This document shows, piece after piece, positions 20,942 to 52,847 of a stretch of 64,000 bases of DNA. Source of the stretch: Methanocalculus natronophilus (lineage in GTDB: Archaea; Halobacteriota; Methanomicrobia; Methanomicrobiales; Methanocorpusculaceae); the NCBI RefSeq assembly GCF_038751955.1, contig NZ_JBCEXH010000001.1, positions 328,300 through 392,299 of the forward strand. Direction: 5' to 3'. Both the position numbers and the translations under genes were made by a program. The notes beneath the pieces were generated by a model. The model did no database searches, was not told the origin of the DNA, and saw only the letters and a list, made by a program, of their open reading frames with translations. How positions within the stretch are numbered: position 1 is the stretch's first letter; each line of letters starts with the position of its first letter.

Positions 20942-22081
20942 ATGGATGGATCCCTTGAGATAGGAAGGATTTTTGGCATACCGGTCCGGCTGCATGTTAC
21001 ATTTCTTCTCATAATCCCGCTCTTCGCCTGGATCATCGGATCACAGATCGGCCTGACGGTCACCTTTATCGAAGGCCTCTTTGCAGTTCCAATTGACCGG
21101 ACCATCATTGAGAGCGGTTTTATCCCCTATATTATGGGTGCAGTCGTCGCGCTCGCCCTTTTCTTCTGTGTCTTTGTCCATGAGCTTGCACATTCGCTTA
21201 TCGCCCGGGCAAATGGCATCAAAATCAACTCTATAACCCTGATCATCTTCGGCGGGGTCGCATCAATGGAGGATATGCTGCCGGATCCGAAGGTGGAACT
21301 TCCAATGGCACTTGCCGGACCCTTAACGAGCCTCGGGCTTGGGCTCATAAGCTGGGCTATGGTCTATGTCGTTGATATCTTTGTCGATGTCGCCGAAATT
21401 GCGGGTATTTTCGTGTATGGGTTTGGATATCTTGCTCTTCTGAATATCCTGCTCTTCGCATTCAATCTCCTGCCTGCATTCCCAATGGATGGAGGACGGG
21501 TGCTCCGCGCCTGGCTGGCCGGCCGGATGCCGCTCCATCGCGCAACCAGGATCGCTTCTGATATCGGAAAGGGCTTTGCCATCCTTTTTGGGATTTTTGG
21601 GATCTTATCTTTCAATTTCCTCCTGATCATCATCGCATTCTTCATCTATATCGGTGCAAGCCAGGAATCATCGATGGTCACGACAAACTTCCTCCTCCAG
21701 GATGTCACTGTCGGTGAGATCATGACCACCGATGTGGTCAGCGTCGAGCCGACGCGTCCGCTCATCGATGTGATCAGGCTGATGTATACCACAAAACATC
21801 TTGGATTCCCGGTCATCGAGCGCGGTGATTTCACCGGGATCATCACGCTTGCCGACATCCATAAAACGAGCGAGATAGATCGCGAGGCGATGCAGGTCCG
21901 TGACGTCATGACACGGCAGCCGATCATCACCATTTCCCCCGCTGCATCAGTGACCGAGGCACTGAAGATCATGACGATCCACAATATCGGGAGAATTCCG
22001 GTTCTGGAGAATGGAACCATTGTCGGGATCGTAACCAGGACAGATATCCTCACCGTCCTTGAGCTCAAGGAAGTGAGCTAG
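20942..22081 (+). CDS. Site-2 protease family membrane metalloprotease with two CBS domains
   Basis: 379 residues. The zinc motif HELAH lies in helix 3 (about 80-84), the partner motif LLPAFPMDGG in a later helix (about 178-187), and about six membrane helices precede a cytosolic CBS pair (about 255-375). This is the architecture of archaeal S2P-CBS proteins, such as the structurally studied Methanocaldococcus enzyme, in which CBS domains bind adenine nucleotides and may gate proteolysis. The substrate, perhaps an anchored regulator, is not evident from neighbours. Confidence 0.9.
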   Translation: MDGSLEIGRIFGIPVRLHVTFLLIIPLFAWIIGSQIGLTVTFIEGLFAVPIDRTIIESGFIPYIMGAVVALALFFCVFVHELAHSLIARANGIKINSITLIIFGGVASMEDMLPDPKVELPMALAGPLTSLGLGLISWAMVYVVDIFVDVAEIAGIFVYGFGYLALLNILLFAFNLLPAFPMDGGRVLRAWLAGRMPLHRATRIASDIGKGFAILFGIFGILSFNFLLIIIAFFIYIGASQESSMVTTNFLLQDVTVGEIMTTDVVSVEPTRPLIDVIRLMYTTKHLGFPVIERGDFTGIITLADIHKTSEIDREAMQVRDVMTRQPIITISPAASVTEALKIMTIHNIGRIPVLENGTIVGIVTRTDILTVLELKEVS

Positions 22082-43119: not shown

Positions 43120-44289
43120 TCATCCAGCAGGCGAGTCTGCCCCTCCGGGATACATGCCAACATATGGGGCATTGCAGTCCCCGTGTTCAGGATAAAGAGG
43201 CGTACCCGAGACCAGTTGATAGTCATCGAACCAGTATGCATCCGGGTTCCGTGTGCAGACCATGACTTTGCCCATCTCTCTTGGATTGGCAGCCTGGTGA
43301 TATTTCAGCACGATATGATCATCTGTGCAGGCGGCTATCTCGATCTTGCCGGTTGCATGCGACATCACAAACCGCACACGTTTTGCAATACCTGAGACCC
43401 TGGCACGCGCCTCTTCAAATATCCGGTACCCCTCCTCTACCGGGACCGCATAGATATGATTGCCATGGGTCGGGCGGCACTGGAAGATATAGTAGGGTGA
43501 AATGCCGATAAACGAGAGTTTCTGGAAGAGTTCTGCCAGCACATCAGGAGAATCGTTAATGCCACGGAGAATTGGCGTCTGGTTCAGCACCATCACCCCT
43601 GCATCAGTGAGAGCGGTGACTGCTTTGACTGCTTCTGCTGTGATCTCGCGGGGATGCGTGAACTGGCTCATCACGTAGATCCGCTTCTCTGGAAGGCTGT
43701 ACTCCTGCAGGAGATGAAGAAGATCCGGATCCTCTGAGATCCGCATCGGGTTGTAGGCAGGTAGCTTGCTCCCGATCCTGATAATACTGACATGATCGAT
43801 CCTGCGAAGCTCTTCGATAATCTCCCTGAGCTTCCCTGTCCCAAGCATCAGGGGATCGCCGCCTGTGAGGAGGACGTTTGTTATCTCGGGATGATTTCTG
43901 ATATAGTCAATACCAGCAGAAACATCCGGGGAGACTTCGTCTGCACCAGATACAAAGAGCCGTTTTCTGAAACAGTACCGGCAGAGTCCCCCGCACGAAT
44001 CAGATACCAGGAGAAGGCCTGTCCGTGCATACTTGTGCTGAAGTCCTGGTGCATGCGTATAGGCCGATTCAGATGAGGGGTCGAGATTGCCTTCCTCCTC
44101 CTCGATCTCACCGGGATCGGGGATCACAAGCCGCCTGATCGGATCTGCTGGATCCGACCAGTCGATAAGACCCAGGTAATAGTCACTCGCCTTGAAGGAG
44201 AACCAGTTCAGAACCGCACCTATCTTTTCCCGCTCTTCACTTGAAATCCCTGGGATTTCCGATACAGATGTAATATAGCGTGTTTTCAT
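43120..44289 (-). CDS. KamA-family radical SAM aminomutase-like enzyme, substrate uncertain
   Basis: 389 residues. The radical SAM cluster is C99-x3-C103-x2-C106 and the fold follows lysine 2,3-aminomutase (LLTGGDPL, RIGSKLPAYNPMRI). The PLP lysine is probably K315 in HATGK. The two aspartates that hold the substrate's side-chain amine in lysine aminomutase are not there: the CDLS-type segment reads C271-R272-P-T and the DAPGGGGK-type segment reads S-H-A-T-G-K, two residues shorter. So lysine is doubtful. No acetyltransferase partner (ablB) is adjacent. GGAGGTGA sits five bases before the ATG at 44289. Confidence 0.75.
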   Translation of the reverse strand: MKTRYITSVSEIPGISSEEREKIGAVLNWFSFKASDYYLGLIDWSDPADPIRRLVIPDPGEIEEEEGNLDPSSESAYTHAPGLQHKYARTGLLLVSDSCGGLCRYCFRKRLFVSGADEVSPDVSAGIDYIRNHPEITNVLLTGGDPLMLGTGKLREIIEELRRIDHVSIIRIGSKLPAYNPMRISEDPDLLHLLQEYSLPEKRIYVMSQFTHPREITAEAVKAVTALTDAGVMVLNQTPILRGINDSPDVLAELFQKLSFIGISPYYIFQCRPTHGNHIYAVPVEEGYRIFEEARARVSGIAKRVRFVMSHATGKIEIAACTDDHIVLKYHQAANPREMGKVMVCTRNPDAYWFDDYQLVSGTPLYPEHGDCNAPYVGMYPGGADSPAG

Positions 44290-44447
44290 AATAATCACCT
44301 CCGCTCAGGATACCATGATCGCACCGGACCAATTTCGGTACAACTGATAAAACGGCACACCCCTGACCAGGGCATACAAAGAAGGATGCACCTGCAGTCA
44401 CGTGACCGATAATAACTCTAGAAAGCCAGGTACCTGTGGCATGCAAT

Positions 44448-44527: not shown

Positions 44528-44920
44528 TTATTTTTTATGTTTTGACTTTTTTCCCTTTGGTTTTGCCATTGAGATAAGGTCGACAACGTAGCTGCCATCC
44601 TTTCCAACACCAATCACCCGTTCATCAGACTGGACCAGTTTCTCAATATTCAGCTCATAGCTGCCCGGACCCACTATCCTGACGCTCTCGACACGATCAT
44701 AAAAGTCATCCTGCTTTTTCCTCTGCGTTTTTACTTCCAGAACAGGTTCGTTCGTCTCGGTTGCAATATCCTCGATGGACTTCTCTTCAAGGACATCCTT
44801 ATGCCTCACCCTGTCACTGACATACAGGAACTTCTTTCCGTCACAGCTCGGACATCCCCTCAGAATCTCAGTTGAGCCATCCCGAAACTCACGGCCGCAC
44901 TGGGTGCATTTGTGAGGCAT
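44528..44920 (-). CDS. arvC: Zinc-ribbon protein OapC/ArvC
   Basis: 130 residues. The N-terminus is a zinc ribbon C5-TQC8-G ... C23-PSC26 (CTQCGREF, RGCPSCDGK). A linker rich in acid residues and a C-terminal beta-rich part follow, ending in a Lys-rich tail. It is the third gene of the conserved GTPase, DUF2073, zinc-ribbon cluster; in haloarchaea this cluster was linked to extracellular vesicle formation. It starts nine bases after the arvB stop. Confidence 0.75.
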   Translation of the reverse strand: MPHKCTQCGREFRDGSTEILRGCPSCDGKKFLYVSDRVRHKDVLEEKSIEDIATETNEPVLEVKTQRKKQDDFYDRVESVRIVGPGSYELNIEKLVQSDERVIGVGKDGSYVVDLISMAKPKGKKSKHKK

Positions 44921-44929
44921 GGTATCTGA

Positions 44930-45310
44930 TCACCTCCCTGAAGAGAGAGAGGCCCAGGCAACAAGCCGGTCTCGCTCGATCTTCAGCATCTTCAACTGCC
45001 CAGCAGGTCCAATGACCGTCATCCGGCCCTGCGGCTTCTTCCGACCACCAAATATCTTCGCAAATATACCGCCGGATTCTGCTTCACTTCCCGGGTAGGT
45101 CTCCATCTCAATTCCCGAAAAACCGCCTGGCCGGATCTCCATCATCGTATACTCAACAAGAAGACTCTGTTCATCTGGTGAAAGCCCACGTTCAAGGACA
45201 ACGACATTCCCGAGCATAACTGAATCGAGGATCGTCCGGATCTTCTCCATTCCGGTCAGGTTTTTGAGTCGGTCTGCCGAGATCAGTTCAATCTGTACTC
45301 CCTGTATCAT
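44930..45310 (-). CDS. arvB: DUF2073 protein OapB/ArvB
   Basis: 126 residues of the DUF2073 family: GVQIELISADRLKNLTGMEKIRTILDSVMLGNVVVLERGLSPDEQ at the N-terminus and GRMTVIGPAGQLKMLKIERD near the end. The ATG at 45310 is preceded by AGGTGAT four bases away, itself overlapping the stop of arvA; a GTG nine bases earlier is less likely. Thought to work with the ArvA GTPase. Confidence 0.8.
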   Translation of the reverse strand: MIQGVQIELISADRLKNLTGMEKIRTILDSVMLGNVVVLERGLSPDEQSLLVEYTMMEIRPGGFSGIEMETYPGSEAESGGIFAKIFGGRKKPQGRMTVIGPAGQLKMLKIERDRLVAWASLSSGR

Positions 45311-45315
45311 TGGTA

Positions 45316-45957
45316 TCACCTGAAATGTTCTGTCATAATATCGTAGAGCTCATCCATATTTGTCCCTTCAAGCCCTGATACAGAGACAACCGGATGCTGC
45401 GGAAACGCACTCTTTATCCTGGAAGGTGCGGCATCCGGGAGATCGGTCTTGTTCGCGAGGATAACCACCGGCAGGTCCCTGCTCTCGATGATACCGACCA
45501 TCATGATGTTCACCTGCATGAAGGGATCAAGCGTGCTGTCCATCACGTAGATGACACCGTTGATATCCTCCCTGAGCCAGTGCATCGCTTCGGCAACACC
45601 CTCGGTTGCCTCACGGGCACGGGTGATCGCCTCATCCTGTTCAAGTCCGTATTCAAGGAACTCATGGTAGTCGATCTTGGTTGTCACACCGGGAGTATCG
45701 ACGATATCAAGAGCAAGCGTATTCCCGTTTGCACCGGTGATCACCACATCCTCCCTCCGCCGTGCCCGGCGGGTTTCGTGAGGTATCTCGGAGACCGGGC
45801 CGACTGCATCACCTGAACAGTCCCTGACGATGCGGTTTGCCAGCGTTGTCTTCCCGGCATTTGGCGGACCATAGATACCGATCCGGGATCTCGACCTCCG
45901 GAATATTGACTGGAAGAATCTTCTGAATCTGTTTTTTGCCCGACTGAACATACTCAT
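45316..45957 (-). CDS. arvA: Era-like small GTPase OapA/ArvA
   Basis: 213 residues. G1 is GPPNAGKTT (about 31-39), G3 DTPG (about 86-89), G4 NKTD (about 169-172); a basic N-terminus (RAKNRFRRFFQSIFRRSRSR) may bind membrane or nucleic acid. It is the archaeal Era-like GTPase long named OapA and, in haloarchaea, reported as the GTPase ArvA that drives vesicle formation. First of three coupled genes; divergent from the CBS operon. Confidence 0.85.
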   Translation of the reverse strand: MSMFSRAKNRFRRFFQSIFRRSRSRIGIYGPPNAGKTTLANRIVRDCSGDAVGPVSEIPHETRRARRREDVVITGANGNTLALDIVDTPGVTTKIDYHEFLEYGLEQDEAITRAREATEGVAEAMHWLREDINGVIYVMDSTLDPFMQVNIMMVGIIESRDLPVVILANKTDLPDAAPSRIKSAFPQHPVVSVSGLEGTNMDELYDIMTEHFR

Positions 45958-46158: not shown

Positions 46159-46167
46159 TTTTAATAT
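46159..46167 (+). promoter_or_regulatory. TATA box of the five-gene CBS operon
   Basis: TTTTAATAT lies 60-68 bases before the first CBS gene, predicting a start near 46190. GGAGGTGA at about 46211-46218 is the ribosome binding site for the ATG at 46227. The rest of the 269-base divergent gap shows no other element that I trust. Confidence 0.55.
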
Positions 46168-46226: not shown

Positions 46227-46790
46227 ATGAGACATAGTGATAACATGGATTTCGAGACACGCATCCCGGTTCGGGAAGTGATGAAACTTCATCCAACCAC
46301 AATCGATGCATACGCCACAACGGCTGATGCGGCCAGGGCAATGTGCCGTGACGAGGTTGGGAGCTGTATTGTGCTTCAGAACAACCTTCCAATCGGTATT
46401 GTAACCGAGGAGGACTTCAACTGCAAGGTAATGGCCAAGGACAGAAAACCTGGCGAGGTATATGTGAAGGACGTCATGAGCACCCCGCTGATTACCATTG
46501 GTGGAGAGGCAGTAATCGCAGACGCCGCAAAGATGATGGTAAAGAGCCGTGTCCGGCGGCTTCCTGTGGTTGATGCGGACCAGAAGGTAATCGGTATGAT
46601 CACCGTCCGGGACATCCTCGGCGTGGCAAACGAGATCAACGAGATCATGACAGATCTGATCGTCATCAACAGGATGAACGACTACCATGCCGGAATCTGT
46701 GACCGCTGCGGAAGCATGTCAGATGATCTGGTCACATTCGACAGCCAGACTATCTGCCCGGTCTGCCGTGAAGAGGAGTCAATCCTATGA
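46227..46790 (+). CDS. CBS-pair protein with C-terminal zinc ribbon
   Basis: 187 residues. Two CBS modules (about 13-70 and 80-133) form one Bateman pair; the second has the usual D-ITVRDIL end. The C-terminus has C158-x2-C161 and C177-x2-C180, a probable zinc ribbon. CBS pairs bind AMP, ATP, SAM or related ligands. First gene of five; its stop overlaps the next start (ATGA). No enzyme domain is attached, so it probably acts on a partner. Confidence 0.85.
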   Translation: MRHSDNMDFETRIPVREVMKLHPTTIDAYATTADAARAMCRDEVGSCIVLQNNLPIGIVTEEDFNCKVMAKDRKPGEVYVKDVMSTPLITIGGEAVIADAAKMMVKSRVRRLPVVDADQKVIGMITVRDILGVANEINEIMTDLIVINRMNDYHAGICDRCGSMSDDLVTFDSQTICPVCREEESIL

Positions 46791-47545
46791 AAGTCGCCCG
46801 AGATCTGATGATTGAGGTCACGACCCTTCAGGCAGACGAGTATGTCACCCGGGCACGGCAGATCCTGCGGGATGATGTCCATCGGGAGATCTTCATCACC
46901 GATTCAGATAACCAGCTTGAAGGGAAGATCACTATCACCGATGTCCTGAGAGTGATGGATACACGATCCAATGTCACTATTGCAGGTTTCATCAGCCATG
47001 CAGCAGCTGTTCCAATGGAGGCACCTCTTGAAGATGTTGCATCAGCCATTCTCGCATCAGAAGCAGACAGCGCAGCTGTTGTCAATGCAAAAAATGAATG
47101 CATCGGGGCCATTCTGCTCAGGGATCTCTTCCCGATCCTGGTCTCCCGCCATGAGATCAAGGGCAGGGTTCTCGATGTTATGACAGAGCAGGTCATCTGT
47201 TCTGACGCAGACGACAGCATCCAGAAGGTCTATGCGACCATCCTCGATAGTGGCTATGCCTCCCTGCCGATTGTCAGTAAAAAGGAGATTGTCGGGATCA
47301 TCTCCCGCCGCGACCTTGTAGAAAACGGCAGGATCAGGCATTCCATTGGGAACAGCAAAAAGATCCCCATCAACCGCGTCATGAACACCCCGGTTATCAC
47401 AACCGGCCCGGATGCTATGGTATCTGATGCCGCAAACCTCATGATCACCCATGATATCAGCCGCATGCCGGTTGTCAGGGACAGGGTTATCGTCGGCATT
47501 CTGGATCGCCATGATGTCCTGAAAACCCTTGTCAAAAAGGCGTGA
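46787..47545 (+). CDS. Four-CBS protein 1
   Basis: 252 residues made almost wholly of four CBS modules (about 1-60, 65-120, 125-185, 195-250), i.e. two Bateman pairs. Typical endings DVLRVMD, RDLFPIL, RRDLVENG and DRHDVLK recur. No other domain. Second gene of the CBS operon. Confidence 0.85.
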   Translation: MKVARDLMIEVTTLQADEYVTRARQILRDDVHREIFITDSDNQLEGKITITDVLRVMDTRSNVTIAGFISHAAAVPMEAPLEDVASAILASEADSAAVVNAKNECIGAILLRDLFPILVSRHEIKGRVLDVMTEQVICSDADDSIQKVYATILDSGYASLPIVSKKEIVGIISRRDLVENGRIRHSIGNSKKIPINRVMNTPVITTGPDAMVSDAANLMITHDISRMPVVRDRVIVGILDRHDVLKTLVKKA

Positions 47546-47555
47546 AGGAGTCAGC

Positions 47556-48497
47556 ATGCACGAGAGAAATACAGGCCAGAACAAAGGTGAGCGTCACCTT
47601 ATGATGCAAGGCAAGATGAATCGTGGATCAGTAGAGTTTAAATCCCGTCCGGCTGAGCGGAAAGGCGGCATAATGTCCATCGCAACACCGGATGTAATCT
47701 GTGTTCCGCCGACGATGACCATCTGCGATGGTGTGGAGACGATGACCCGGGAGGGTTTTCGGAGGCTTCCCATCACAGATGCCGGCAGCGGGCACCTCCG
47801 CGGGATCATCACGGTCTCAGATATCGTCGATTTTATGGGCGGTGGAGACCGGTTCAACCTGGTGACAAAGAAACATCATGGAAACTTTGTCTCAGCAATC
47901 AATGACAGCCTGAGAACGATCATGACCGAACAGGTCATGACACTGTCGGAATCAGACGGTATCGAGGATGCAATAGACCTGATCGTCCTGAAAAGACACG
48001 GTGGAGCCCCGATCATAAATGCCGATTCAAAAGTCATCGGAATGGTGACCGAACACGATCTGCTCAAAGCCCTCTTCCATGGACAGAGTCTCCTTTCAGT
48101 AGAGGACGTGATGTCACAGGCACCACGGGTCACAAACCCCGACTGTTCGATTGCAGCGGTTGCAGAGCAGATGAACAAATACCGCTTCAGAAGGCTCCCG
48201 GTTGTCTCCGAAGATGTCCTCTTTGGAATCGTGACGGCAACAGATATCATGAAGTACCTCGGATCAGGCGAGGTGTTCCGGAAGCTGGAGACTGGAGATG
48301 TCGGTGAAGTGACGGCTCAGCCGATCCGCTCCATCATGAGCCGCAGCCTCCAGACAACAACACCTGATAAAAGCATCAATGAGGTGGCACGCGAGATGGT
48401 GCAGAAAGAGATTGGAGCGTTCCCCGTCACCGAAGAGTCACGCCTCATTGGAATGATAACAGAATTCGATCTTGTCAAAACACTCGCAAAGAGGTGA
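47556..48497 (+). CDS. Four-CBS protein 2 with a basic N-terminal extension
   Basis: 313 residues. A polar, basic N-terminus of about 40 residues with several Met, Lys and Arg precedes four CBS modules (about 42-100, 120-180, 185-245, 255-312). The ATG at 47556 has GGAG five bases before it and begins after the previous stop; an upstream TTG is not needed. Possible nucleic-acid or partner binding by the N-terminus is inference. Confidence 0.8.
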   Translation: MHERNTGQNKGERHLMMQGKMNRGSVEFKSRPAERKGGIMSIATPDVICVPPTMTICDGVETMTREGFRRLPITDAGSGHLRGIITVSDIVDFMGGGDRFNLVTKKHHGNFVSAINDSLRTIMTEQVMTLSESDGIEDAIDLIVLKRHGGAPIINADSKVIGMVTEHDLLKALFHGQSLLSVEDVMSQAPRVTNPDCSIAAVAEQMNKYRFRRLPVVSEDVLFGIVTATDIMKYLGSGEVFRKLETGDVGEVTAQPIRSIMSRSLQTTTPDKSINEVAREMVQKEIGAFPVTEESRLIGMITEFDLVKTLAKR

Positions 48498-48503
48498 GAC
48501 ACC

Positions 48504-49343
48504 ATGATAATCAGAGAGATGATGTCATCCCCTGTTTATGTTGTGGGCAGAAACGAGAATATCGCTCATGCCCGCAACATGATGCTGAAGCACAGGATAT
48601 CAAGACTGCTTGTGATGGATGAGGATGAATCGCTTGCCGGTATCATCACAAAAAAGGATATCGCATACGGATTCCGGCAGACCGATCCCATCTGGAGAAG
48701 GAGGCCCATTGACAGGATACCAATTGAGGTGATGATGAGAAGAGAGCCGGTTACCATAGCGCCCCAGGCAGAGGCACGTGAAGCAGCGCACCTGATGCTT
48801 GCCAATGATGTCAGCGGTCTTCCGGTCACCGAGCTTGGGAAGGTCGAGGGTATCGTCACAAAGAGCGATATCATGGCATCCGGAGAGGTTGACCGGATCA
48901 GGGCAAAGGTCTCCGATATCATGGAGGACGTGATGACGGTATCACGCTACCACTCCCTGAACCATATTATCGACATCATCAGGGAGAGAAATGACAAGCT
49001 GCTTGTGGTAAACAATGACGGAACACTTGCAGGAGTTATCACGGAATCCAATATTGCATTCTATGAATACTTCGATCATATGGGCATTCCCGAGAAGGAC
49101 ATCACCCATCTGAGACGGCAGGAGAGCGGAGGGAGAAAAAGCCTCCGTCATGTCCGTCATGTCTCAGGGATAGCAGAGGACGTGATGTCCCGTCCGGTGA
49201 GGACAATCAACCCGGATGAATCTATAGCAAGTGCGATTGCGTTAATGAGAGAGCACCAGATCAACAGTATCATCGCTGTTTCCGATGGTGAGATCAGAGG
49301 GATATTAAAACGGGATGACATACTGAAAGAGGTAGCACAATGA
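48504..49343 (+). CDS. Four-CBS protein 3
   Basis: 279 residues: four CBS modules (about 1-60, 70-125, 135-190, 225-278) with a Lys/Arg-rich insertion (HLRRQESGGRKSLRHVRHV, about 203-221) between the third and fourth. GAGGTGAG before the ATG. Overlaps the fifth gene by four bases. Confidence 0.85.
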   Translation: MIIREMMSSPVYVVGRNENIAHARNMMLKHRISRLLVMDEDESLAGIITKKDIAYGFRQTDPIWRRRPIDRIPIEVMMRREPVTIAPQAEAREAAHLMLANDVSGLPVTELGKVEGIVTKSDIMASGEVDRIRAKVSDIMEDVMTVSRYHSLNHIIDIIRERNDKLLVVNNDGTLAGVITESNIAFYEYFDHMGIPEKDITHLRRQESGGRKSLRHVRHVSGIAEDVMSRPVRTINPDESIASAIALMREHQINSIIAVSDGEIRGILKRDDILKEVAQ

Positions 49344-50116
49344 CAGCAGAGATAACTATCAGGGACGTCATGTCAAAACCCGTCAGTATTGCGAAATCGG
49401 CTCTTATAACAGAGGCGCTTGACCGGATGCTCGCAGACGGTGTCGACCCGATCATCGTCACCCACCAGAATAAGGTCATCGGTACAGCCTCCCGCCGGAC
49501 AATTGCCGAGAAGATCGGCAGCAAGAAGACAGGGAATATTCCGCCAACCCAGATCCACGTTGCGAACGTGACCAAAGAGGACTTTACCTTTGCCTACCCG
49601 GATCAGGAGATCGATATCCTGATTCCGCTCCTCCAGAGCTACAAGATTGTTGTTGTTCTGGACAGTGAACACAAGCTTATCGGGAAAGTGACGATGGCTG
49701 ATCTGCTCAGAGTACTGAAGCCCAACTGTCCGCTTGAGGATGTTATCGAGACTGCGCCAAAGATCGCACCTGAAGACCGGATTGTTCACCTTCACCGGAG
49801 AATGGTTGACGATTCCGCGACCAGGTTTATCGTCAATGACAATGGTATGATCCTTGGCATCGTCACCGAGACCGATCTTGCACGTGCAGTTGTCAGACTC
49901 AAAGAGATGGTTGAGGTGCGGCATCAGGATAACAGGATCCGAAACCTGATCGCAAAGGATATCATGAGCACCCCCGTCATCACGACTGACATGAAATCAA
50001 CAGTCGAAGAGGTCATTGACCTGATGGCAGGAAAAAATATCAGTACGGTTCTCGTGACCAGCCAGGAAAAGCCAGTCGGCCTTATCACCCGGAGATCGCT
50101 TATTAAAGCGCTCTGA
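49340..50116 (+). CDS. Four-CBS protein 4
   Basis: 258 residues, again four CBS modules, the second and third more divergent than in the preceding genes (for example KVTMADLLRVLKP, TETDLARAVVRL). Last gene of the operon. It ends in RRSLIKAL at the C-terminus and is followed by a poly-T end. Confidence 0.8.
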   Translation: MTAEITIRDVMSKPVSIAKSALITEALDRMLADGVDPIIVTHQNKVIGTASRRTIAEKIGSKKTGNIPPTQIHVANVTKEDFTFAYPDQEIDILIPLLQSYKIVVVLDSEHKLIGKVTMADLLRVLKPNCPLEDVIETAPKIAPEDRIVHLHRRMVDDSATRFIVNDNGMILGIVTETDLARAVVRLKEMVEVRHQDNRIRNLIAKDIMSTPVITTDMKSTVEEVIDLMAGKNISTVLVTSQEKPVGLITRRSLIKAL

Positions 50117-50140
50117 GAAGATAAAACGGCTCTTTTCTTC

Positions 50141-50147
50141 TTTTTTT
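50141..50147 (+). terminator. Poly-T end of the CBS operon
   Basis: Seven T residues, preceded by a further T-rich stretch (TCTTTTCTTC), begin 25 bases after the last CBS gene. Confidence 0.6.
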
Positions 50148-50250
50148 ACCAACACCAGAAAAGCCCCGTGAGGCAGCAGACCATATCCACACCCCTAACC
50201 ATGCTGCCCGATAGCGCCTTTTAATACAGGGAGCAGTGCATGTACTCTGC

Positions 50251-51219
50251 ATGGAGATGAACCCGACCACCCCGGTACAACCTACCGAGCAGATCAGCGA
50301 ACTCCTTGATGCGATGAGCAGGACCGGTTTTCAGGGCCGGAAACTTGGTGAAGCATACAGGATATGGAGGGAGATGATCCGGGATCCCGACTGTACAATC
50401 CTGCTTGGCATCTCGGGCGCGATGGTGCCTGCAGGAATGCAGGAATGCCTCATTACCCTGGCAGAAAACCACTATATTGATGGTATCGTCTCAACCGGTG
50501 CAAACATCTTCCATGACATCTGTGAACACCTGGGCGTCCGCCACTATCGCGGCCACCACATGGCCGATGATGAAACACTTTTTGAGAAGGGGATCGACCG
50601 GATCTACGATGTCTTCGCCTATGAAGAGGAGTTCCGGGATATCGATTCCCGGGTCGAGCGCTATCTCGCATCCATTGCACCATTTAAGGGATCGAGCCGC
50701 GAGCTGATTGGCCGGATCGGTACATGGATCGCCAGTGAGAGACCAGAGGGGCGATCGCTCACCGCCACCTGTGCTGCTGAAGGCATCCCCATCTTTGTCC
50801 CTGCAATCGCAGACTCATCAATTGGGATCAGCCTGGTGATGGCACGGAGGGCAGGTGTTGAGGTCGAGGTCGACCAGATCGCCGATACCGACGAGATTAC
50901 CCGGATGGTCGAGGGTGCAGGGAAGACCGGTGTCGTCTATATCGGAGGGGGTGTTCCGAAGAACTTCATCCAGCAGACCCAGGTGATAGCCTCAATCCAT
51001 GAGCACGATCTCGGCGGCCATGCCTATGCGGTCCAGTTCACCACCGATGCCCCCCATTGGGGAGGGCTCTCCGGCTGCACCTTCGAAGAGGCGATCAGCT
51101 GGGGCAAGGAGACCGTGGACTCGCCCCGTGTCCAGTGTTTCTGCGACGCCACAATCGCCCTCCCCCTGGTAACCTCAGCCCTTGTTTTCTCCGGGATTCA
51201 GCGGACAGGGCGGAGTTGA
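50251..51219 (+). CDS. dys: Deoxyhypusine synthase
   Basis: 322 residues. The catalytic lysine segment is GGGVPKNF (about 231-238), and the NAD-binding SWGKE close to the end and STGANIFHDI (about 85-94) are typical. It transfers the aminobutyl group of spermidine to aIF5A lysine; agmatine-dependent variants exist in archaea. The start is uncertain: ATG at 50251 or 50257; TTTAATAC about 30 bases upstream suggests a leaderless message beginning near 50251. Confidence 0.88.
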   Translation: MEMNPTTPVQPTEQISELLDAMSRTGFQGRKLGEAYRIWREMIRDPDCTILLGISGAMVPAGMQECLITLAENHYIDGIVSTGANIFHDICEHLGVRHYRGHHMADDETLFEKGIDRIYDVFAYEEEFRDIDSRVERYLASIAPFKGSSRELIGRIGTWIASERPEGRSLTATCAAEGIPIFVPAIADSSIGISLVMARRAGVEVEVDQIADTDEITRMVEGAGKTGVVYIGGGVPKNFIQQTQVIASIHEHDLGGHAYAVQFTTDAPHWGGLSGCTFEEAISWGKETVDSPRVQCFCDATIALPLVTSALVFSGIQRTGRS

Positions 51220-51439: not shown

Positions 51440-51889
51440 ATGGAAGATACCGAACTGAATTACTTCGTACGCGTCAGCAATACCGATCTTGACGGCACAA
51501 AACAGGTCCAGATCGCGCTGACGGGCATCAAGGGCGTGGGTACCCACACCGCGCTCGTCCTGGCACGCAAGGCCGGCGTCAACACCCACGAGCTGATGGG
51601 CAAACTGTCAGATGAGGATGTTGACCGGATCCGGGCTGTTGTGGACGAGTACGTTGAGACAGTCCCGACCTGGATGATGAACAGACCAAAAGACCTCTAT
51701 ACCGGAAAACCCCGCCACCTTCTCGCCGCTGATGTCTCGCTTGCACATGACGAGGATATCAATATTATGAGGAAGATGCGCTGCTACCGCGGCATCCGTC
51801 ATGATACCGGACAGAAGGTACGTGGACAGCGGACAAAATCCACTGGCAGGACAGGAGCGACTGTTGGTGTGTCCAAGAAGAAGAGATAA
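51440..51889 (+). CDS. rps13: 30S ribosomal protein uS13
   Basis: 149 residues. N-terminal helix-two-turn-helix ([21 protein letters not shown]) and a C-terminal basic tail ([23 protein letters not shown]) are diagnostic of uS13 in the head of the small subunit. First protein gene of the uS13-uS4-uS11-Rpo3 cluster. Confidence 0.95.
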
Positions 51890-51903
51890 GGGGTGAAGAC
51901 AAA

Positions 51904-52449
51904 ATGGGATATCCAGGAAAGAACCACAAGCAGTATCAGTCCCCCCAGCGCCGGTTCGAGAAGGCGCGGATTGAGGATGAACGGAATCTGGCAATCAGCT
52001 TTGGTCTCAGGAACAAAAAGGAGATCTGGAAGGCAACCCACATTCTCCGCCGCCACAGGCAGGGTGCCCGTGACATCCTTGCGATGACCTCCGGTGGTGT
52101 CGAGGAAGGACGTGTTGAGGCACGACGTGAGGAGCTCCTCTCTCACCTTCAGAGATACGCCATCATCGGTGCCGGAGCAACAATCGACGACGTCCTGTCG
52201 CTGAAAGTCAACCACATCCTGGAACGCAGGCTCCAGACGATTGTCTACCGCAAAGGTCTTGCCCGTTCACCAAAACAGGCCCGCCAGCTGATCAACCACG
52301 GCCATATCGCAATCAATGACAGGCGTGTCTCGATCCCCGGGTACATGGTTACACGGGCAGAGGAAGACCAGATCAGTTATTACCAGTCGTCACCGTTCAC
52401 CCAGGAGACCAACCCCGAGCGGGGCCGGATCAATAATGTGAGGGAGTAA
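51904..52449 (+). CDS. rps4: 30S ribosomal protein uS4
   Basis: 181 residues. Archaeal/eukaryotic-type uS4 with the central S4 RNA-binding domain ([33 protein letters not shown]). Primary 16S rRNA binder. GGGGTGA before the ATG. Confidence 0.95.
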
Positions 52450-52451
52450 GC

Positions 52452-52847
52452 ATGGCAGCTGAGAATGACAAATGGGGAATTGCCCATATCTATGCATCCT
52501 TTAACAACACCATCATCACCGTCACCGACCTCTCGGGAGCAGAGACCATCTGCAAGAGCAGCGGCGGGATGGTCGTCAAGCAGGCACGGAACGAGAGTTC
52601 ACCCTATGCAGCGATGCAGATGGCCACAAACGTCGCACAGGCAATTCGGGACAAGGGGTTCGTCGGCCTCCATGTGAAGGTCAGGGCGCCCGGCCGCGGA
52701 AAGCAGCGGAGCCCCGGTCCCGGAGCCCAGGCAGCTATCCGGGCACTTGCCCGTGCCGGTATCAGGATCGGCAGAATCGAAGATGTCACCCCTGTCTCGC
52801 ATGACAGCATCCGTACACGCGGGGGCAGGCGGGGAAGGAGAGTCTGA
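52452..52847 (+). CDS. rps11: 30S ribosomal protein uS11
   Basis: 131 residues. [22 protein letters not shown] and the ending [12 protein letters not shown] are typical of archaeal uS11. Its stop overlaps the Rpo3 start by one base. Confidence 0.95.

Follow-up and report, generated by a model that had tools for sequence, protein, structure and literature searches.

Five same-strand open reading frames at 46227–50116 of a 64,000-nucleotide stretch of the Methanocalculus natronophilus genome (contig NZ_JBCEXH010000001.1, positions 328,300–392,299; hereafter the window) encode proteins in which CBS (PF00571) is the sole Pfam domain above cut-off (E 2e-22 to 8e-53). With no other Pfam domain to indicate a function, the locus raises the question of what such proteins act on. 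A sequence-only reading had proposed a multi-subunit adenylate-sensing hub acting on unknown partners.

Architecture of the five-gene operon

Genes 1–5 encode proteins of 187, 252, 313, 279 and 258 residues, with 4-nt overlaps at genes 1/2 and 4/5; genes 2 and 3 are separated by 10 nt and genes 3 and 4 by 6 nt (Table 1). Together they hold 18 CBS modules (2+4+4+4+4). A genome-wide Pfam scan returned 42 modules, 17 of them in the operon; the second module of gene 2, which completes the 18, has diverged too far for Pfam to recognize but lies inside the full-length match of that protein to chain 4 of 9znf. The earlier description of a single run of five coupled, CBS-only genes with about 18 modules (one pair and four sets of four), one TATA box and a poly-T end is thus borne out, and the zinc ribbon on the CBS-pair protein, the basic N-terminus of the third protein and the basic insertion of the fourth all proved to be real, conserved features. 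No hairpin terminator was found in a search of the operon end, and bacterial-type promoter matches at the locus were disregarded because the host promoter is archaeal.

Table 1. Features of the CBS operon and its surroundings, in window coordinates
Feature	Position	Strand	Basis or remark
ArvC/OapC zinc-ribbon protein	44528..44920	-	PF09845 E 3.5e-43
ArvB/OapB	44930..45319	-	PF09846 E 4.9e-36
ArvA/OapA small GTPase, divergently transcribed neighbour	45316..45957	-	function from PMC10927574
TATA-like box TTTTAATAT of the CBS operon	46159..46167	+	box and flanks conserved in four Methanocalculus genomes
Gene 1 ('CBS1zn'), CBS pair and C-terminal zinc ribbon	46227..46790	+	Pfam CBS x2
Gene 1 zinc-ribbon CxxC...CxxC (C158, C161, C177, C180)	46698..46766	+	invariant in 23 orthologues
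Gene 2 (CM-5 family), four-module CBS protein orthologous to 9znf chain 4	46787..47545	+	9znf_4 match
Gene 3 (CM-4 family), four-module CBS protein orthologous to 9znf chain 5	47556..48497	+	9znf_5 match
Gene 3 basic N-terminal tail motif GKMNRGSVEFKSR	47610..47648	+	present only in loci also holding gene 2
Gene 4 (CM-1 family), four-module CBS protein orthologous to 9zni chain 6 (SriC)	48504..49343	+	9zni_6 match
Gene 4 WRRRPID motif between modules 1 and 2	48693..48713	+	W64, R66, R67, D70 invariant in 24 orthologues
Gene 4 basic hairpin-loop insertion separating modules 3 and 4	49062..49163	+	AF2 strands 198-205/212-220
Gene 5 (CM-2 family), four-module CBS protein orthologous to 9zng/9zni chain 7 (SriD)	49340..50116	+	9zni_7 match
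T-rich tract 3' of the operon, likely transcription end	50131..50147	+	sequence
Deoxyhypusine synthase, downstream	50236..51219	+	usual downstream gene in Methanomicrobiales
uS13-uS4-uS11, downstream of deoxyhypusine synthase	51440-52847		usual downstream genes in Methanomicrobiales

Relationship of genes 2–5 to ribosome-bound CBS proteins

Genes 2–5 are homologous over their full length, one to one, to SriA–SriD of Methanosarcina acetivorans. The matching chains are 9znf_4, 9znf_5, 9zni_6 and 9zni_7/9zng_7, with the other chains of these entries scoring well below, and the PDB titles describe the M. acetivorans 70S ribosome complexed with SriA and SriB (9znf), SriC and SriD (9zni) and SriD (9zng). 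Gene 2 aligns with 9znf_4 at positions 1–249 of 251 (E 1.8e-85), gene 3 with 9znf_5 (E 2.6e-100), gene 4 with 9zni_6 (E 1.3e-106) and gene 5 with 9zni_7 over 6–256 (E 3.8e-34). Gene 2 would be SriA and gene 3 SriB if, as we infer, chains 4 and 5 of 9znf are named in that order. The AF2 model of gene 4 retrieved 9zni_6 first (TM 0.82); the next matches were 9znf_4, a Sulfolobus CBS protein with bound AMP and the ribosome-bound Dri of Pyrobaculum. M. acetivorans belongs to another methanogen order and its Sri sequences are diverged, with about 37% identity between gene 4 and SriC (9zni_6) in the structural alignment, a divergence that we count against the Sri assignment.

Gene order points in the same direction. 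The CM-5, CM-4, CM-1 and CM-2 hibernation cluster of PMC13324472 comprises the same families in the order of genes 2-3-4-5. That paper reports CM-5 and CM-1 to be lost in Methanocorpusculum, whose loci in our survey have likewise lost genes 2 and 4. CM-4 and CM-2 were assigned by order and loss pattern, and genes 2 and 4 by the N- and C-terminal halves of the hibernation factor Dri from Pyrobaculum calidifontis (9e6q, 9e7f). Within Dri, gene 2 matches the N half best (stretch 60–290), and the C half resembles gene 4 (332–398 and 431–633), basic loop included; the insertion of gene 4 sits in the same place as the loop of the Dri C-terminal module, which is functional according to PMC13324472, and its WRRRPID motif has a WRRQ counterpart in Dri. 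However, Dri is one fused 655-residue protein, whereas CM-5 and CM-1 are separate genes in the Methanocalculus operon, and nothing in Dri corresponds separately to genes 3 and 5. Being unfused, the operon proteins are not Dri itself but may work like it. While PMC13324472 leaves the role of CM-2 unresolved, 9zng and 9zni show a protein of the CM-2 type bound to the ribosome.

HibA of Pyrococcus abyssi (9sr9 and others) is also a four-module CBS disc on the ribosome, like genes 2–5, but it carries an HPF/RaiA domain that genes 1–5 lack, and identity with HibA was rejected on this ground. None of 61 Methanomicrobiales genomes yielded a RaiA/HPF domain (the control search was positive in 11 of 14 named genomes), which fits the exclusion of HibA from CM-5/4/1/2 genomes in PMC13324472.

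The full-length homology to ribosome-bound chains, the CM-5/4/1/2 order and the likeness of genes 2 and 4 to the Dri halves suggest that the operon is very probably the Methanocalculus sriABCD, in which genes 2–5 would encode SriA–SriD, bind idle 70S ribosomes and inactivate them. As the orthologues sit on a methanogen 70S ribosome, the partner of genes 2–5, left blank in the earlier reading, is most likely the ribosome. The multi-subunit hub survives in part: a co-conserved, AMPK-γ-like set is present, but the solved structures show two pairs (2+3 and 4+5) and not a five-protein complex.

The cluster recurs far above chance: gene-3 orthologues occur in 113 of 120 Methanomicrobiales genomes. 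The gene-order survey, which had been suggested as a check on the hub, found the full five-gene set in 38 of the 58 Methanomicrobiales loci examined, and the cluster recurs through methanogenic Halobacteriota. A recent local duplication with decayed ligand sites, raised earlier as a finding that would undo the hub, was rejected because the paralogues in the operon are only 23–31% identical, compared with orthologue medians of 46–60% across Methanomicrobiales, and modules without the adenylate motif lack it consistently across orthologues. The five CBS proteins are an ancient set that probably acts together. If genes 2–5 are SriA–SriD, the Sri system would extend beyond one Methanosarcina to the order Methanomicrobiales and to the majority of methanogen lineages surveyed in the phylum.

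Proposed action on the ribosome and competing explanations

Living close to the energy limit, methanogens need a quick, reversible shut-down of translation. We propose that each four-module protein folds as a flat CBS disc like AMPK-γ and that, once energy is exhausted, pair 2+3 or pair 4+5 would bind the empty 70S ribosome of Methanocalculus, as judged from the homologous complexes. By analogy with Dri, the large subunit would be covered on its peptidyl-transferase side by gene 2, as it is by the N-terminal half, and gene 4 would insert its basic inter-module hairpin where mRNA runs through the small subunit, as the C-terminal half does. Translation would thereby be blocked and the ribosome protected from decay. 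Adenylates in the conserved pockets might set the timing of binding and release, with gene 1, the usual companion, perhaps acting as a regulator or release factor.

Adenylate control of these proteins is plausible. Only 10 of the 18 modules conserve the canonical [ST]xxD ribose-phosphate motif (two in gene 1, one in gene 2, all four in gene 3, two in gene 4 and one in gene 5), and in the other 8 it is degenerate. In PMC13324472, HibA binds AMP with no clear effect on ribosome binding, which we count against the Sri assignment. For these two reasons the term adenylate-sensing is one we infer rather than observe. Retention of the motif, in under two thirds of modules, guides the choice of pockets to mutate.

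The full set of motifs in gene 3, its closeness to MJ1225 (E 1.2e-86), described in the PDB as a putative archaeal γ-AMPK homologue, and the AMPK-γ-like fold would also suit a single soluble adenylate-sensing complex of all five proteins that works on metabolic enzymes or a kinase, with ribosome binding secondary. We consider this improbable, as the orthologues of genes 2–5 are ribosome-bound, in two pairs, and the order-wide gene-neighbourhood survey saw no kinase or metabolic enzyme as a constant neighbour. Less probable again is a role for some members in transcription, as DNA-binding regulators akin to HhpR (CM-3), the CBS-only transcription factor of Pyrococcus yayanosii (PMC13324472), rather than on the ribosome. 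The weak NCBIfam HhpR matches, the basic tail and loop and the zinc ribbon of gene 1 are compatible with such a role, but the best HhpR score is 86 bits against a cut-off of 520, so far below it that an HhpR-like regulator was rejected for genes 2–5; moreover, these genes match CM-5/4/1/2 and not CM-3, and the basic parts are common to the ribosome-bound orthologues. Such a role may still hold for gene 1 alone. That the CBS proteins regulate the adjoining arvA-B-C vesiculation genes is scarcely credible, since the operon of family f8 is intact yet apart from arvA and families without the CBS genes keep arvA, despite a divergent pairing, for which we found no earlier description, in 57 of 57 Methanomicrobiales loci and several other families.

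Gene 1, the gene-3 tail and the downstream genes

Gene 1 could be assigned to none of the Sri proteins. Its AF2 model (mean pLDDT 84) matched CBS pairs in Foldseek, TA0289 among them. TA0289 (1pvm, 2qh1) and 3ghd combine CBS with a zinc-ribbon- or rubredoxin-like domain, the same architecture as gene 1, although the sequence match is weak (63.5 bits) and the overall superposition poor (rmsd above 17 Å), so that the ribbon of gene 1 is either placed differently or modelled uncertainly. Gene 1 heads the full clusters and stays beside gene 3 alone in families f9 and f12 and beside genes 4 and 5 alone in one genus of family f8 (three genomes); together with the adenylate motif in both of its modules, this favours a fifth Sri component. 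In contrast, it also occurs without nearby sri genes (families f10 and f24), is missing from Methanocorpusculum loci that retain genes 3 and 5, and has no counterpart in the ribosome structures 9znf, 9zng and 9zni, an absence that we also count against the Sri assignment as a whole.

We therefore suggest only tentatively, with a little less than even confidence, that gene 1 acts with either Sri pair as a regulator or release factor bearing adenylate and metal, and that, as a linked proposal, gene 3 needs gene 2 for its basic tail to function. The counts behind the tail's restriction were made after reading the sequences by eye, as the regular expressions missed true tails (six in Methanomicrobiales and a few outside) and gave one false match. 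Together these would supply a candidate fifth component and a simple rule, that the gene-3 tail goes with gene 2. PMC13324472 retains four-module proteins only and, in the part consulted, does not treat the CBS-pair and zinc-ribbon gene; likewise, we found no report in the literature searched on Methanomicrobiales CBS genes or on CBS with zinc ribbons in methanogens, and no earlier description of the conserved leading gene or of the restriction of the tail.

Finally, in 44 of 59 Methanomicrobiales loci the operon is followed by translation genes, namely deoxyhypusine synthase and/or uS13-uS4-uS11, and uS13 and uS11 are among the chains of the Sri ribosome entries.

Operon structure and ribosome-bound counterparts of genes 2–5

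The sequence-only reading had described five CBS-only genes coupled by overlaps or short gaps, and the ORF coordinates show this observation to be accurate, with 4-nt overlaps at the gene 1/2 and 4/5 junctions and gaps of 10 nt between genes 2 and 3 and 6 nt between genes 3 and 4. No other domain scored above Pfam cut-offs, and the estimate of about 18 CBS modules holds (2 + 4 + 4 + 4 + 4 across genes 1–5). A whole-genome search, which found 42 modules in the genome, detected 17 of the 18 singly; the remaining one (gene 2, module 2) falls within the alignment of gene 2 to PDB chain 9znf_4, which spans the full length. The proposed TATA box corresponds to the TATA-like TTTTAATAT, kept in four Methanocalculus genomes, and the poly-T end to a T-rich tract.

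Features of the CBS operon and its surroundings (window coordinates)
Feature	Coordinates	Remarks
379-aa CBS-pair protein	20942-22081	
KamA-type radical SAM protein	43120-44298	
arvC-arvB-arvA (OapC-OapB-OapA)	44528-45957	vesiculation genes; upstream, divergent to CBS operon
TATA-like box	46159-46167	
Gene 1	46227-46790	ORF, same strand as genes 2-5
Gene 2	46787-47545	ORF, same strand as other four
Gene 3	47556-48497	ORF, same strand as other four
Gene 4	48504-49343	ORF, same strand as other four
Gene 5	49340-50116	ORF, same strand as other four
T-rich tract	50131-50147	

In PDB sequence searches, genes 2–5 matched one-to-one and at full length with 9znf_4 (E 1.8e-85), 9znf_5 (2.6e-100), 9zni_6 (1.3e-106) and, with a single-sequence query, 9zni_7/9zng_7 (3.8e-34). 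Entry 9znf is titled 'Methanosarcina acetivorans 70S ribosome in complex with SriA and SriB', the M. acetivorans 70S entries 9zng and 9zni name SriD and SriC with SriD, respectively, and uS13 and uS11 are present in all three. SriD is the only Sri protein in 9zng, which identifies it as chain 7 and leaves SriC as chain 6 of 9zni; judging from order, 9znf chains 4 and 5 would be SriA and SriB. The earlier proposal that the proteins act on unknown partners stands as to a partner but probably not as to 'unknown', since these ribosome-bound matches make the ribosome the most likely one.

PMC13324472 (2026) defines CBS-module families CM-1 to CM-6 and describes a CM-5/4/1/2 gene cluster in methanogens. 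It also reports CM-1 and CM-4 as detected in dormant ribosomes of M. acetivorans, and describes Dri as a fusion of CM-5 with CM-1. Along Dri, the best match of gene 2 is in the N half (60-290) and that of gene 4 in the C half (332-398 and 431-633), so the genes here run in the order CM-5/4/1/2. Methanocorpusculum loci have lost genes 2 and 4, in agreement with the absence of CM-5 and CM-1 that the paper gives for that genus. The operon belongs to a very recently described kind, plus one unexplained conserved component, gene 1. A RaiA/HPF domain was found in 0/61 genomes of the order, and therefore no HibA.

Proposed mechanism, basic segments and ligand motifs

Idle 70S ribosomes are most likely bound and blocked by two protein pairs, 2+3 and 4+5; if Dri is a guide, the gene 2 product would cover the peptidyl-transferase side and the gene 4 product the mRNA path. 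The basic insertion noted in gene 4 is a hairpin between modules 3 and 4 (residues about 187-220), modelled by AF2 as two strands adjoining a low-confidence stretch. Its K/R-rich pattern aligns with Dri, and it lies at the position of a loop described as important in the Dri C-terminal module (PMC13324472).

The basic N-terminus of gene 3, also recognized earlier, reads GKxDRGPVEFKSR and is conserved across loci with gene 2. Counted after the sequences had been read by eye, the tail occurs in 43/43 loci with gene 2 and 0/15 without it within the order, and in 23/23 and 0/7 outside. The loci share descent, but loss appears to have occurred more than once, in Methanocorpusculum, in part of f2, in one genus of f6 and in f9/f12. 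This co-occurrence points to a tail that works jointly with gene 2, the partner of gene 3 in 9znf.

The [ST]xxD motif, a proxy for nucleotide binding only, is conserved in 10 of the 18 modules: every module of genes 1 (two) and 3 (four), the first two of gene 4, and module 3 in each of genes 2 and 5. The other eight mostly lack it. According to PMC13324472, the HibA module prefers AMP, and neither AMP nor ATP clearly affected ribosome binding by HibA. Adenylate control, as in the sensing hub proposed earlier, is kept as a hypothesis because of this HibA result.

Conservation and age of the gene set

Gene 3 has an orthologue in 113/120 Methanomicrobiales genomes, in single copy except for one split in two pieces on two contigs. 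All five genes occur together in 38/58 loci of the order; the remainder carry genes 1-3-5 (7/58), 3-5 (7/58), 1-2-3-5 (4/58), 1-3-4-5 (1/58) or, on a short contig, 2-3-4-5 (1/58). In a sample of 120 genomes across the phylum (E <= 1e-25), 85 had a gene 3 match and 101 a gene 1 match. Complete clusters were found in families f8, f11, f14, f15, f16, f19, f20 and f22, and genes 1 and 3 are retained in f9 and f12. In f13, f17, f21 and f23, which we infer to be haloarchaea, this sample gave no gene 1 match and, except for one partial, no gene 3 match.

Recent local duplication, the alternative named earlier, is rejected: paralogues within the window are 23-31% identical, compared with median identities of 46-60% for orthologues within the order, so the five-gene set is old.

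In genome G205, a second cluster (L141:6044-7936, minus strand) encodes, after genes 1 and 2, a fused gene-3/gene-4 protein of about 630 aa. It is similar to a CM-1/CM-4 association that PMC13324472 mentions for M. acetivorans.

Gene 1 and the neighbouring genes

The zinc ribbon ascribed to gene 1 was confirmed, its CxxC...CxxC being invariant among orthologues. The CBS pair was modelled confidently by AF2 (mean pLDDT 84), and a structure search with the model matched many CBS pairs, including TA0289; no gene-1-like chain from the 9zn entries was among the PDB matches. Where the cluster is complete, gene 1 stands with genes 2–5; in f9/f12 its only companion is gene 3, and in three genomes from a single f8 genus (L163, L164, L144), which has lost genes 2 and 3 together, it is found with genes 4 and 5 only. 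Gene 1 may have a wider role, since f10 and f24 (L158-L162, L165-L167) carry it with no sri gene close by, and some Methanocorpusculum loci lack it although they retain genes 3 and 5.

The arv genes, shown to govern extracellular vesicles in Haloferax (PMC10927574), are divergent to the CBS operon in 57/57 loci of the order and in several other families, not including f8. The two gene sets may share a control region containing two distinct TATA-like boxes. The KamA-type protein, which adjoins arvC in several loci, scored below the thresholds of the models for lysine, glutamate and arginine 2,3-aminomutase. In 44/59 loci of the order, the genes downstream of the operon are deoxyhypusine synthase and/or uS13-uS4-uS11. 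The N-terminal part of the 379-aa CBS-pair protein elsewhere in the window resembles, judging by its sequence, a site-2-protease-type membrane domain.
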